This document shows, one piece after another, positions 11,089 to 61,449 of a stretch of 64,000 nucleotides of DNA. Numbering within the stretch: the first letter of the stretch is position 1; the number at the start of each line of letters is the position of its first letter. The DNA is from Bacteroidia bacterium. Lineage in GTDB: Bacteria; Bacteroidota; Bacteroidia; Chitinophagales; JAUHXS01. The DNA is taken from positions 248,001-312,000 of the forward strand of contig JAUHXS010000002.1 of the NCBI GenBank assembly GCA_030426955.1, given 5' to 3'. The position numbers were made by a program, and so were the translations under genes. Below the pieces are notes generated by a model, which worked only from the letters and a program-made list of their open reading frames with translations, was not told where the DNA came from and ran no database searches.

Positions 11089-12525
11089 ATGACAGAACCA
11101 CATGTAGCCGTTTGGGATAATTGCCTGAAAATCTTTAAGGATAATGTAAATATCCAAAGCTACAAGACGTGGTTTGAGCCAATTCGACCAATTAAGCTCG
11201 AAGGAAGTGTTTTAACAATAGAAGTTCCAAGTCAATTTTTCTATGAATGGTTAGAGGAGCATTATGTTACTTTGCTGAGAAAGACAATTGAGCGAGAGTT
11301 GGGCAAAGATGCTCGTTTAGAGTACAGTATTGTTGTTGAAAATAGCTCAGGTTTTAAAAGTCCCTATACAATTAATATTCCAACTTTTGGAAATACGCCT
11401 AGTAAAAATCCGGACGTTTCTGTTCCGATTAATATAGGCAATTCAATTAAGAACCCTTTTGTGATTCCAGGATTAAAAAAGATCAACATCGATCCTCAGT
11501 TGAACCCTAACTACAACTTTGAGTCTTTTGTAGAAGGTGATTGCAATAGATTAGCAAGGTCAGCAGGTTTTGCAGTGGCAAACAAACCAGGAGGAACATC
11601 TTTTAACCCACTGGTGATTTACGGAGGTGTTGGTTTAGGGAAAACACATTTAGCACAAGCAATTGGAAATCAAGCTAAGCAAAACTTTAACAATAAAACG
11701 GTTCTTTATGTTTCGTCAGAGAAGTTTACCAATCAGTTTATAGATGCATTAAAGAATAATTCGATCAATGACTTTGTGCATTTTTACCAGTTAATTGATC
11801 TGTTAATTATTGATGATATTCAGTTCTTTGCTAACAAAGAGAAGACACAAGATATCTTCTTCCATATATTTAATCATTTGCATCAATCAGGTAAGCAGTT
11901 AGTATTAACATCTGACAGACCTCCAAAAGACTTAGAGGGCATCGAAGAAAGATTGTTATCACGTTTCAAGTGGGGGTTATCTGCAGACCTTCAGGTGCCT
12001 GACTTTGAAACGCGTATTGCTATCCTAGAAAAGAAAATGCATGCAGACGGTATAGAGCTTCCAAGAGATGTTGTCGAGTTTGTTTCTTACAATATTGATA
12101 CCAACATCAGAGAGCTAGAGGGCGCTTTGATCTCGTTGCTAGCACAATCTAGTTTGAATAAAAAAGAGATAGATTTAGAAATTGCGAAGAAGATCATCAA
12201 GAACTTTGTAAAAAGTATTTCTAGAGAAGTATCTATCGACTTTATCCAAAAAATGGTTTGTGAGCATTTTCATGTACCCATTGAAAAAGTTAAAGAAAAG
12301 ACTAGAAAAAGAGCCATCGTTCAAGCACGTCAGCTATCTATGTTTTTAGCGAAGAGTTATACTAAAAACTCATTGAAACTAATTGGTAAGCACTTCGGTG
12401 GTAGAGACCATAGTACAGTGATACACTCTTGTCAGGCAATACAAAATCTTTTAGATACCGATGAAGAGTTTAGAGATAGCGTAGATGAGTTGAAGAAGAA
12501 GATTCAGATGAGCAGTATCTCTTAG
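11089..12525 (+). CDS. dnaA: Chromosomal replication initiator protein DnaA
   Basis: DnaA binds DnaA boxes at oriC and melts the origin. The 478-residue protein shows all four domains: an N-terminal DnaB-contact domain (1-85), a short linker with Asn/Pro, the AAA+ domain with Walker A GGVGLGKTHL (about 184-193) and Walker B LLIIDDIQFF, and the C-terminal DNA-binding domain with GRDHSTVIHSCQ. The 232-bp upstream region is AT-rich, but I see no convincing run of DnaA boxes there, so oriC cannot be claimed at this site. Confidence 0.98.
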   Translation: MTEPHVAVWDNCLKIFKDNVNIQSYKTWFEPIRPIKLEGSVLTIEVPSQFFYEWLEEHYVTLLRKTIERELGKDARLEYSIVVENSSGFKSPYTINIPTFGNTPSKNPDVSVPINIGNSIKNPFVIPGLKKINIDPQLNPNYNFESFVEGDCNRLARSAGFAVANKPGGTSFNPLVIYGGVGLGKTHLAQAIGNQAKQNFNNKTVLYVSSEKFTNQFIDALKNNSINDFVHFYQLIDLLIIDDIQFFANKEKTQDIFFHIFNHLHQSGKQLVLTSDRPPKDLEGIEERLLSRFKWGLSADLQVPDFETRIAILEKKMHADGIELPRDVVEFVSYNIDTNIRELEGALISLLAQSSLNKKEIDLEIAKKIIKNFVKSISREVSIDFIQKMVCEHFHVPIEKVKEKTRKRAIVQARQLSMFLAKSYTKNSLKLIGKHFGGRDHSTVIHSCQAIQNLLDTDEEFRDSVDELKKKIQMSSIS

Positions 12526-12617
12526 TAAAATTTCTAAGTTTTTATTTTCACCATTAAAGCTTGTTGGATTAAACGCTTGGAAATTTAAGAATTTGTTAGT
12601 TCTTTTGCATACTCACT

Positions 12618-12702
12618 GGAGAGGTGGTCCAAAGGACTCCCTTGGAGGTGAGTGGCTGAAACCAACGGTTTGTCCCAAAGGACTCCTATGGAGCTAAATC
12701 GT
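12618..12702 (+). pseudogene. Interrupted 5' half of tRNA-Ser(GCT) with two hairpin inserts
   Basis: The first 44 bases of the intact tRNA-Ser at 12966 recur here without substitutions but are split in three. Segment 1 (12618-12627) equals tRNA bases 1-10; then 20 foreign bases (12628-12647); then tRNA bases 11-35 (12648-12672); then 21 foreign bases (12673-12693); then tRNA bases 36-44 (12694-12702). The two inserts resemble each other (TCC..AAAGGACTCC..GGAG) and each folds into a short hairpin with an ACT loop. The second insert lies inside the anticodon, between G and C of GCT. The tRNA 3' half is absent. The GIY-YIG start codon lies six bases further on. Confidence 0.9.
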
Positions 12703-12708
12703 TGAAAT

Positions 12709-12951
12709 ATGTTCTTTGCATATATATTGAAAAGTTTAAAAGATGGGAGATGCTACTATGGTAGCACTAACAATTTGCGGAATAGACTGGAGAAACATAA
12801 CAAAGGGTATGTCAAGTCAACTAAGCAAAGAAGACCTTTTGAAATTATATACTTTGAAAAATTTGATACTAGAAAAGAAGCATTTAATAGAGAAAAGTAT
12901 TTCAAGAGTGTTGATGGCTATATTTGGCTAAAGAAAGAAAAAATCATTTAG
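12709..12951 (+). CDS. GIY-YIG endonuclease-superfamily protein
   Basis: An 80-residue single-domain GIY-YIG protein. The two motif strands are read as AYILKSL and CYYGST (the Y-x-Y/x-x-G signature near residues 4-20), followed by NNLRNRLEKHNKG with the conserved Arg, and the later catalytic Glu region TRKEAFNREKYF and a KxxxG-like end. Stand-alone UvrC-like members of this size are frequent in Bacteroidota; their biological role is not established. The gene starts just after a broken tRNA-Ser 5' half and ends 14 bases before the intact tRNA-Ser, so it sits between two copies of its neighbour tRNA. A homing or tRNA-targeting role is inference. Confidence 0.85.
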   Translation: MFFAYILKSLKDGRCYYGSTNNLRNRLEKHNKGYVKSTKQRRPFEIIYFEKFDTRKEAFNREKYFKSVDGYIWLKKEKII

Positions 12952-12965
12952 AAACTTAACTTACT

Positions 12966-13054
12966 GGAGAGGTGGGTGAGTGGCTGAAACCAACGGTTTG
13001 CTAAATCGTCGTGCTTGGAAACAGGCACCGCGGGTTCGAATCCCGCCCTCTCCG
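12966..13054 (+). tRNA. tRNA-Ser(GCT)
   Basis: Acceptor stem GGAGAGG/CCTCTCC with discriminator G at 13054, anticodon stem ACGGT/ATCGT with loop TTGCTAA (anticodon GCT), a long class II variable arm, T-stem GCGGG/CCCGC with loop TTCGAAT. The 3' CCA is not encoded. All arms pair, so this copy appears functional, in contrast to the broken copy at 12618. Confidence 0.96.
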
Positions 13055-13147
13055 CTTTTACTCTCTGTAGCCTTGGCGAAAGGGAGTATCGTTCTTTGAA
13101 GATGGTAGACTATTGTGAAATTTTGATAGCCTGTCATAGAGAGTTTC

Positions 13148-13174: not shown

Positions 13175-13233
13175 CGGGGTGTAGCGTCAGCCTTCGTTGC
13201 ACTTTGACTGACAAGCAGTCCGGTTAACCGGAC
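13175..13233 (+). pseudogene. Interrupted 5' part of tRNA-Pro with palindromes
   Basis: Bases 13175-13186 equal the first 12 bases of the intact tRNA-Pro (13284), preceded by the same TTA. A 28-base insert bounded by GTCAG/CTGAC inverted repeats follows. tRNA sequence then resumes as GCAGTCCGGTTA at 13215-13226, and the D-loop is extended into the perfect 16-base palindrome GTCCGGTTAACCGGAC (13218-13233). No anticodon arm, T arm or 3' acceptor follows, so this is a 5' fragment only. Confidence 0.85.
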
Positions 13234-61015: not shown

Positions 61016-61090
61016 GGGCGCTTAGCTCAGTTGGTTCAGAGCACTTGGTTTACACCCAAGGGGTCATAGGTTCGAATCCTATAGTGCCCA
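61016..61090 (+). tRNA. tRNA-Val(TAC)
   Basis: Acceptor GGGCGCT/AGTGCCC, D stem GCTC/GAGC, anticodon stem CTTGG/CCAAG with loop TTTACAC (anticodon TAC), variable GGGTC, T stem ATAGG/CCTAT, discriminator A. CCA not encoded. All arms pair. It ends the pseudo-tRNA array. Confidence 0.97.
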
Positions 61091-61093
61091 CGA

Positions 61094-61119
61094 AGCCTTC
61101 CACGTCGGAAGGCTTTTTT
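61094..61119 (+). terminator. Terminator after tRNA-Val
   Basis: AGCCTTCC (61094-61101) pairs with GGAAGGCT (61107-61114) around a five-base loop and runs into a T tract. The same terminator recurs, one base changed, after the downstream tRNA fragment at 61426. Confidence 0.9.
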
Positions 61120-61126
61120 ATTTAAT

Positions 61127-61384
61127 ATGCCTTATACTTACATTTTATATTCTTCCAGTATTGATAAGTATTACGCAGGGTATACCAGGTCAAACCTAGA
61201 GGAACGACTTAATAAACATAACACAAATCACAAGGGTTTCACAGGCAGGGTAAACGATTGGAAAGTCGTTTGGAATGAGTATCATGATCTAAAAACAGAA
61301 GCATACAAAAGAGAACGAGAAATAAAATCATGGAAGAGTAGAAAAAAGGTTGAAGTGTTGATTGGTTCAGCGCATCCCGATTAA
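61127..61384 (+). CDS. GIY-YIG endonuclease-superfamily protein with tRNA-encoded C-terminus
   Basis: An 85-residue GIY-YIG protein: YTYILYSSSIDKYYAGYT is the motif pair, SNLEERLNKHN has the conserved Arg, and EAYKREREIKSWKSRKK includes the expected catalytic Glu/Lys region. It starts seven bases after the tRNA-Val terminator. Its last residues (IGSAHPD) and stop codon are read from tRNA-like sequence: the D-arm GATTGGTTCAGCGCA and the hairpin whose loop provides TAA. So the gene runs into a broken tRNA 3' half in frame. A second member of this family is at 12709. Substrate unknown; tRNA-gene targeting is inference. Confidence 0.88.
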   Translation: MPYTYILYSSSIDKYYAGYTRSNLEERLNKHNTNHKGFTGRVNDWKVVWNEYHDLKTEAYKREREIKSWKSRKKVEVLIGSAHPD

Positions 61385-61422
61385 TATCGGGAGGGTCATA
61401 GGTTCGAATCCTATGGTGACCA
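61358..61422 (+). pseudogene. tRNA-Val-like 3' fragment downstream of the GIY-YIG gene
   Basis: From the D loop (GATTGGTTCAG) on, this resembles the array copies, including the TCCCGAT-TAAT-ATCGGGA hairpin (61375-61392), but here the T arm is intact (ATAGG TTCGAAT CCTAT), followed by GGTGACC and A. There is no 5' acceptor to pair with. Bases 61358-61384 are also the end of the GIY-YIG gene. Confidence 0.85.
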
Positions 61423-61425
61423 CGA

Positions 61426-61449
61426 AGCCTTCCACATCGGAAGGCTTTT
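61426..61449. terminator. Duplicated terminator
   Basis: AGCCTTCC-ACATC-GGAAGGCT followed by TTTT is the tRNA-Val terminator repeated. It lies at the same distance from the tRNA 3' fragment as the original does from the intact tRNA. It also lies two bases from the bestrophin stop on the other strand and can serve both. Confidence 0.85.

Follow-up and report, generated by a model that had tools for sequence, protein, structure and literature searches.

The locus at positions 12618–13055 of the window (the whole stretch of 64,000 nucleotides analysed here) is a member of a widespread and apparently undescribed family of cassettes of ~0.4 kb, in which a single-domain GIY-YIG gene has an intact tRNA gene on one side and a partial tRNA copy, interrupted by a palindrome, on the other. 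The cassette is probably a homing-type, seemingly selfish, mobile element targeted to a tRNA gene, although no cleavage or mobility data are available; its insertion is well supported, while cleavage, homing and what the palindrome does are matters of inference. No description of bacterial tRNA–GIY–palindrome cassettes was found in the open literature, most subscription papers and all preprints lying outside the scope of that search, so that novelty is not proven.

In the window, the intact tRNA-Ser(GCT) (12966–13055, + strand, called by ARAGORN) is preceded on the same strand by an exact repeat of its bases 1–44, identified by repeat comparison in three pieces: bases 1–10 at 12618–12627, bases 11–35 at 12648–12672, and bases 36–44 at 12694–12702; such a repeat, made of a 26-nt exact block and two shorter ones in register, is not a product of chance. 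Two related inserts, both read on the + strand, split this displaced 5′ part. Palindrome 1 (TCCAAAGGACTCCCTTGGAG, 20 nt, 12628–12647), at the acceptor/D-arm junction, has the arms and loops TCC-AAA-GGA CTCC-CTT-GGAG and matches in class the 22-nt double hairpins of tRNA-Ser cassettes; palindrome 2 (TCCCAAAGGACTCCTATGGAG, 21 nt, 12673–12693), in the anticodon loop, has TCC-CAAA-GGA CTCC-TAT-GGAG and agrees in both position and class with the inserts of the tRNA-Ser cassettes L248 and L260. The displaced copy stops at the 3′ side of the anticodon stem, the ATG of the GIY-YIG gene follows 6 bases past its end, and the stop codon lies 14 bases before the intact tRNA; the leader of the displaced copy (12611–12617, + strand, direct repeat D5) is likewise repeated, at 12959–12965, with 6/7 bases conserved (ACTcACT/ACTtACT). 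The initial annotation of this region had described a 44-base 5′ copy split by two related 20/21-nt inserts, ending at the anticodon stem and followed after six bases by the GIY-YIG gene and then by the intact tRNA, and a base-level check found it correct throughout 12618–13055, with the split copy at 12618–12702; the ends of both inserts are ambiguous by one G, and palindrome 2, which the annotation placed inside the anticodon, lies in the anticodon loop, either within the anticodon or immediately before it.

The gene enclosed by the two tRNA copies (12709–12951, + strand) encodes a single-domain GIY-YIG nuclease of 80 residues, matching PF01541 (E=2.2e-16) with 60.3 bits, above the cut-off of 22.6; Y5, Y16, G18, R26 and E62, comprising the motif tyrosines, the arginine and the catalytic glutamate, are invariant in alignments. 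The AlphaFold model (pLDDT 97.5) is a bare GIY-YIG domain with a UPF0213/SLX1-like fold, the nearest solved folds being UPF0213 and the branched-DNA nuclease SLX1, with I-TevI more distant. No separate DNA-binding domain is present in the model; since none has been added, and since tRNA genes and palindromes both form hairpins, target recognition by this nuclease may be partly structural, an inference drawn from the predicted structure. A relationship to group I intron endonucleases (TIGR01453) was considered and rejected (16.9 bits, cut-off 56); there is no intron to splice, because the tRNA reads through intact in the DNA.

The evidence for insertion comes from relatives at the same locus, where dnaA (11089–12525, + strand, identified as an ORF) is the conserved upstream neighbour, with a match in 95/100 order relatives, and was used as the anchor for the comparison. 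The gene order dnaA – tRNA-Ser(GCT) – tRNA-Pro(TGG) is conserved in the order; among the relatives whose region downstream of dnaA was read, 18 have one uninterrupted tRNA-Ser(GCT), 41–280 bp after dnaA, with neither a GIY gene nor a partial tRNA copy at this site, and local alignment of the tRNA to the gap scores 10–17 in these empty-site relatives against 64 in the window. The window cassette is therefore an insertion in its own lineage. That a GIY-bearing element entered the tRNA-Ser gene, leaving a whole tRNA and a displaced 5′ part, is well supported by comparison of the loci; that the 5′ part of the intact tRNA was supplied by the element is inferred. The initial annotation had called for a search for an uninterrupted tRNA-Ser in relatives, which the 18 empty sites provide, and had proposed that the element entered at the anticodon arm while supplying a new 5′ half; entry is upheld, but the window does not reveal where it took place, since nothing distinguishes the two copies between the leader and base 44.

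A clearer pair of filled and empty sites is offered by Flavobacterium, in which 27/30 genus members have the order YqeY-like gene – tRNA-Arg(TCG) with a plain tRNA, without insertion. The filled loci read CTGGATA, then an inserted unit composed of palindrome, GAATATCAGATTTCGAC, GIY gene and TGGCTGCGTAGTTCAACTGGATA, and then GAATATCAG; in short form, CTGGATA is followed by the unit palindrome-GAATATCAG..-GIY-..CTGGATA and then by GAATATC. On the simplest parse, the palindrome marks the site of insertion in the D-loop and forms one end of the element, whose other end restores the tRNA-Arg; the join, in this clearest pair, lies at the palindrome and not at the end of the partial copy. In the same genus, one locus (L237) carries within the same tRNA-Arg a cassette of the opposite polarity (type U, defined below), with palindromes at both the D-loop and the T-loop points.

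The window contains a second cassette (61016–61449), which is the mirror image of the first: the intact tRNA-Val(TAC) (61016–61091, + strand, ARAGORN) has the GIY gene downstream (61127–61384, + strand, 85 aa, PF01541 E=1.9e-15), and this ORF runs into the displaced 3′ part of the tRNA, which is followed by a duplicated terminator (61362–61449, + strand, by sequence comparison), the palindrome TCCCGATTAATATCGGGA (61375–61392) replacing the anticodon arm. Between these two, bases 1–12 and 13–23 of tRNA-Pro (13175–13226, + strand, direct repeats D7 and D11) are split by a 29-nt hairpin insert (13187–13215) with GTCAG..CTGAC arms, 58 bp upstream of the intact tRNA-Pro and without a GIY gene; this relic is a probable decayed cassette. 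At another locus (L215, G000:C5:112515), CCTGCCTGCCGGCAGGCAGG splits the leader and 5′ part of a tRNA-Gly, with the intact tRNA-Gly(GCC) just downstream and no GIY gene; GIY-less interrupted copies such as those of tRNA-Gly and tRNA-Pro are as expected for decayed cassettes. In a further genome (L207, G038), past dnaA – tRNA-Ser – tRNA-Pro, tandem GIY-less 3′ copies of tRNA-Pro carry TCCCGATAGCTCGGGA and CCTGCC palindromes, from which it follows that the neighbouring tRNA-Pro is also a target.

Two architectures recur in the family: type D, as at the window tRNA-Ser (partial 5′ tRNA – GIY – intact tRNA), and type U, as at the window tRNA-Val (intact tRNA – terminator – GIY – partial 3′ tRNA – duplicated terminator). 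Of the 11 GIY homologues in the genome to which the window belongs, 10 adjoin tRNA genes, namely those for Arg(TCT), Arg(ACG), Arg(TCG), three Met, Ser(GCT), Ser(TGA), Phe and Val(TAC), and at least 491 relatives were found in the collection scan. In both gene orders, the GIY genes lie on the strand of the adjacent tRNA in ~160/160 cases (61/61 in 100 order genomes, 79/79 in 80 GTDB loci and 24/24 among close homologues in the phylum), counting tRNAs within 300 bp of the GIY gene, a few loci being common to the sets. Most hosts are Bacteroidota; records carrying the labels Patescibacteria, Ignavibacteria, Omnitrophica, WOR-3 and Neomarinimicrobiota contribute single loci, but several of these are MAGs, so that binning errors are possible. 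The cassettes sit at many unrelated isoacceptors, isoacceptor-specific nuclease clades span families and phyla, and tandem arrays are common.

The GIY loci without an intact tRNA nearby were left out of the tRNA statistics; they consist in part of truncated or degraded tRNA cassettes and in part of a separate GIY-YIG subfamily, located away from tRNAs and flanked by inverted dispersed repeats such as GTCATCCTGAGCCTGTCGAAGG. Loci of this second subfamily are L052, L054–L057, L060, L062, L066, L067, L025 and L039, and the window's genome has one copy of it (C5:93682). At L271 and L276 (perhaps also at L261), the cassette layout is found on a gene of the GDP-mannose/dTDP-glucose dehydratase type (VTGGAGFI), whose 5′ end is duplicated upstream of the GIY gene, with the break after GGATTTAT. 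At L020, L049 and L082, ARAGORN calls as tRNAs (Stop-TTA, Ile-TAT) displaced copies with a palindromic anticodon arm; such copies, with their odd anticodons, are a source of false tRNA annotation.

The partial tRNA copies have a stereotyped anatomy. A recognisable one accompanies 125 of the 156 GIY genes lying within 200 bp of a tRNA, and 94 of these 125 hold an insert of 14–70 nt, giving 112 inserts in all, with a median fold z of -3.0 against base-shuffled controls; the points of insertion are the 3′ end of the D-loop (TA^GA), the 8/9–14 region, the anticodon arm and the T-loop (TTC^GA). Many inserts of the close homologues of the window protein are 22-nt double hairpins, e.g., TGCCAAAGGCATCCCTTCGGGA, in which compensatory changes are strongly evident (94% paired cells; covariation score 0.52 vs 0.16, 0/500 shuffles; slid controls ≤0.12), and the window inserts are shorter versions of them (TCC-AAA-GGA CTCC-CTT-GGAG). 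Folded singly, the two window inserts are weak (z -0.6 and -0.8, not significant); their standing as structured units rests on the covariation of the homologous 22-nt inserts, not on the folding of single sequences. A signature of hybrid tRNAs, sought as acceptor-stem mismatch between the two halves, was not significant, G2-U71 occurring also in empty loci.

Each nuclease lineage pairs with one target tRNA and one palindrome class, as is shown statistically. Along a tree of 184 GIY proteins, the anticodon of the neighbouring tRNA changes 43 times, compared to 92 when shuffled (minimum 83 in 200), and the best match in another genome has the same anticodon in 80/126 cases (12 expected). The GIY copies inside the window's genome are 45% alike, no more than random pairs. 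The closest homologues of the window protein (50–61% identical) are mostly at tRNA-Ser (TGA, CGA, GGA, GCT), the rest including some at tRNA-Cys and one at tRNA-Pro. As to the palindromes, Arg lineages have CCTGCCTGCCGGCAGGCAGG, fMet lineages TCCGCC..GGCGGA, and another group of nucleases TCCCG..CGGGA, which replaces the anticodon arm. Palindrome class agrees with that of the nearest GIY at another locus in 95/98 cases (46 expected; maximum 61 in 2000 shuffles), and still in 81/98 when this nearest GIY is forced to a different amino acid. The shuffle tests for anticodon and palindrome ignore shared ancestry. At least four palindrome classes, each with its own nuclease lineage, coexist in the window's genome, so that host identity fails to explain the pairing; since class follows nuclease lineage, the palindromes look like part of the element.

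On the homing interpretation, the nuclease would cut the uninvaded tRNA gene in the D-loop, the anticodon loop or the T-loop, depending on lineage, and the break would be repaired from a cassette-bearing copy, which would install the GIY gene together with the missing half of the tRNA; the tRNA would survive because the cassette carries that half. The palindrome would form the terminus of the element where this adjoins the displaced half, and there it could both spoil the cut site in that half and weaken recombination between the tRNA copies that would delete the GIY gene; repeated rounds would lead to the tandem arrays seen at many loci. Which role is the relevant one (blocking re-cutting, preventing recombinational loss or providing an end needed for movement) is open. 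Two of the criteria for homing elements and mORFs (see below) are fulfilled, namely empty syntenic alleles and a duplicated end of the target gene that keeps the gene whole; the acceptor-stem comparison gave no significant sign of a further one, origin of the supplied half in another lineage. Several points speak against the homing interpretation: besides this missing hybrid signature and the disregard of shared ancestry in the shuffles, the intact tRNA of the donor should be cuttable and its immunity is unexplained, the tandem arrays suggesting that cutting occasionally takes place; a local duplication would also account for the frequent agreement of the duplicated leader or terminator with the sequence of the site; and the predicted fold is nearer to UPF0213 and SLX1 than to I-TevI, with no separate DNA-binding domain in the model. 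A broader formulation can be put forward only tentatively, and remains doubtful: small GIY-YIG nucleases and their cognate palindromes would form mobile systems cutting conserved sites in genes (tRNA genes, and also a sugar dehydratase gene), the element rebuilding the gene and the palindrome sealing the displaced site, with the same activity seeding the dispersed palindromes of Bacteroidota.

A rather unlikely, still possible, alternative is that what really moves is the palindrome, mobilised by the GIY-YIG protein in the way that REP palindromes are by RAYT transposases, the tRNA cassette being the autonomous form and the dispersed palindromes its non-autonomous offspring. The window hairpin TCCAAAGGACTCCTTTGGA occurs at two further sites in the window's genome, one of them within a palindrome cluster, and the structured hairpin pattern has four true members there, two of them elsewhere; AAAGGACTCC, tried as a high-copy repeat of this genome, was discarded (5 exact hits, with a similar control). 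Besides the dependence of palindrome class on nuclease lineage, and the inverted dispersed repeats, rather than tRNAs, flanking the second GIY subfamily, this alternative draws on co-occurrence: among 296 genomes of the phylum, the double hairpin is found in 24/37 of those with a close GIY homologue vs 25/259 of those without (Fisher 5e-13), within one family in 8/10 vs 5/25 (p=0.0017), and a GIY homologue is present in 16/16 of the order genomes that contain the CCTGCC palindrome (CCTGCCTGCCGGCAGGCAGG), vs 57/100 overall (p=4e-5). This is, however, association only; the cassettes themselves account for some of the copies counted, a close GIY homologue is missing from some genomes rich in palindromes, and no GIY-YIG enzyme is known to act as a bacterial transposase. 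In several species of one genus (L195–L198), CCTGCCTGCCGGCAGGCAGG is inserted within simple GACACAA repeats, at CAA^GAC, here too just ahead of GA.

It is clearly unlikely that the palindromes are ordinary mobile repeats, accumulated in an unselected, dead tRNA fragment, with the GIY gene residing at tRNAs for an unrelated reason (a safe, transcribed site). The same palindrome classes are dispersed elsewhere, and two hairpins in one 44-base fragment resemble repeated hits; yet the inserts recur at set points (TA^GA in the D-loop, TTC^GA in the T-loop, and the anticodon loop), the classes follow nuclease lineage, the nucleases track the anticodon of their neighbour, and the CCTGCC palindrome is 38-fold denser within 300 bp of a GIY gene than over the remainder of those loci (80 GTDB loci). 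The initial annotation had taken the two hairpins for independent insertions of one tiny element; that they are of one class and have dispersed relatives agrees with this, while their being random strays is contradicted by the link between class and lineage. Neither circumstance that would have refuted its account, interrupted copies never accompanied by a GIY gene or hairpins forming part of an unrelated structured RNA, was encountered, although interrupted copies lacking the gene do occur.

A local tandem duplication of part of a tRNA gene that also captured a GIY gene, and that the host retains for some function (e.g., in tRNA maturation, regulation or defence) rather than as a selfish element, is quite improbable: duplicated leaders and terminators with local identity are frequent, placement on the same strand suits co-transcription, and tandem arrays are common, but presence is patchy at conserved loci, many unrelated isoacceptors are affected, isoacceptor-specific nuclease clades extend across families and phyla, and decayed GIY-less copies exist. 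Attachment of an integrase-type genomic island can practically be dismissed, for, even if tRNA genes are the usual attachment sites and one part of the tRNA is restored, the unit measures only ~0.3–0.45 kb, has no integrase-sized ORF (the stretch from one repeat to the other being taken up by the 80-aa GIY-YIG ORF), is found at either half of the tRNA, 5′ or 3′, and leaves a partial copy that is interrupted, not exact.

If the homing interpretation is true, the tRNA genes of Bacteroidota, and sporadically of several other phyla, have been repeatedly invaded by minimal homing elements of ~0.4 kb which keep the tRNA while replacing half of it. Such invasions would account for many short GIY-YIG genes, for pseudo-tRNAs whose anticodons are odd and for the breaking of contigs at tRNA genes; they would also provide a natural set of nucleases with differing tRNA-gene specificities. 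The pairing of nuclease and palindrome was unexpected, and makes the mover of the dispersed Bacteroidota palindromes a directly testable question.

The closest known systems, by analogy, appear to be the fungal mitochondrial mORFs as regards anatomy and phage SegB as regards biochemistry. The mORFs (mobile ORFs), known in atp6 of Allomyces macrogynus and in atp6, atp9, cox2 and nad3 of Glomus (that of atp9 being a GIY-YIG), bring a replacement gene end and leave the native end beyond, relatives having the uninterrupted gene (PMC3630166). The likeness lies in an endonuclease gene placed within a host gene, with a replacement end supplied and the native end displaced; the cassettes differ in residing on a bacterial chromosome, mostly in tRNA genes, in 5′ and 3′ versions, with a single-domain nuclease of ~80 aa and, where the element meets the displaced half, a lineage-specific palindrome. 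SegB, encoded within a tRNA cluster of phages T4/T6, is a GIY-YIG homing endonuclease of the free-standing kind (PMC2988022, PMC13096335), which cuts inside tRNA genes at RAWTSGAAC and drives tandem amplification via homologous recombination (PMC13096335). This motif is the reverse complement of GTTCSAWTY, i.e., of the T-loop (GTTCGAATY fits), and many type U palindromes stand at that site (GTTC^GA). A GIY-YIG gene beside tRNA genes is common to both systems, as cutting within these genes would be on the homing interpretation; SegB, however, is phage-borne, and a partial tRNA copy with a palindrome has not been described for it. SegB is also larger than a single GIY-YIG domain.

RAYTs are nuclease-type genes linked to a cognate short palindrome which is also dispersed. 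An overview of REP palindromes is available (PMC3733652). The link between cassette nuclease lineage and a cognate, likewise dispersed, palindrome class (95/98) is comparable; in contrast, the cassettes are tied to tRNA genes and have a GIY-YIG in place of a Y1 transposase (no Y1 transposase gene lies between the tRNA copies, where the only gene is the GIY-YIG), and there is no evidence that the protein moves the palindrome. The single-domain nucleases of the UPF0213/SLX1 group (PDB 1ywl, 1zg2, 7cq2), the nearest matches in sequence and fold, are housekeeping or branched-DNA nucleases, whereas the cassette genes have a patchy distribution, exist in multiple copies and are linked to tRNAs. Fungal mitochondrial double-hairpin elements are short inserts with two adjacent small hairpins; those of the cassettes, unlike them, are bacterial, lie beside a GIY-YIG gene and occupy fixed points of tRNA fragments. 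The element would work like a homing endonuclease gene with gene-end replacement, the lineage-specific palindrome being a new feature; homing and the role of the palindrome remain hypotheses, under which the cassettes would be a bacterial counterpart of the mORFs of fungal mitochondria and a relative, on the chromosome, of phage SegB.
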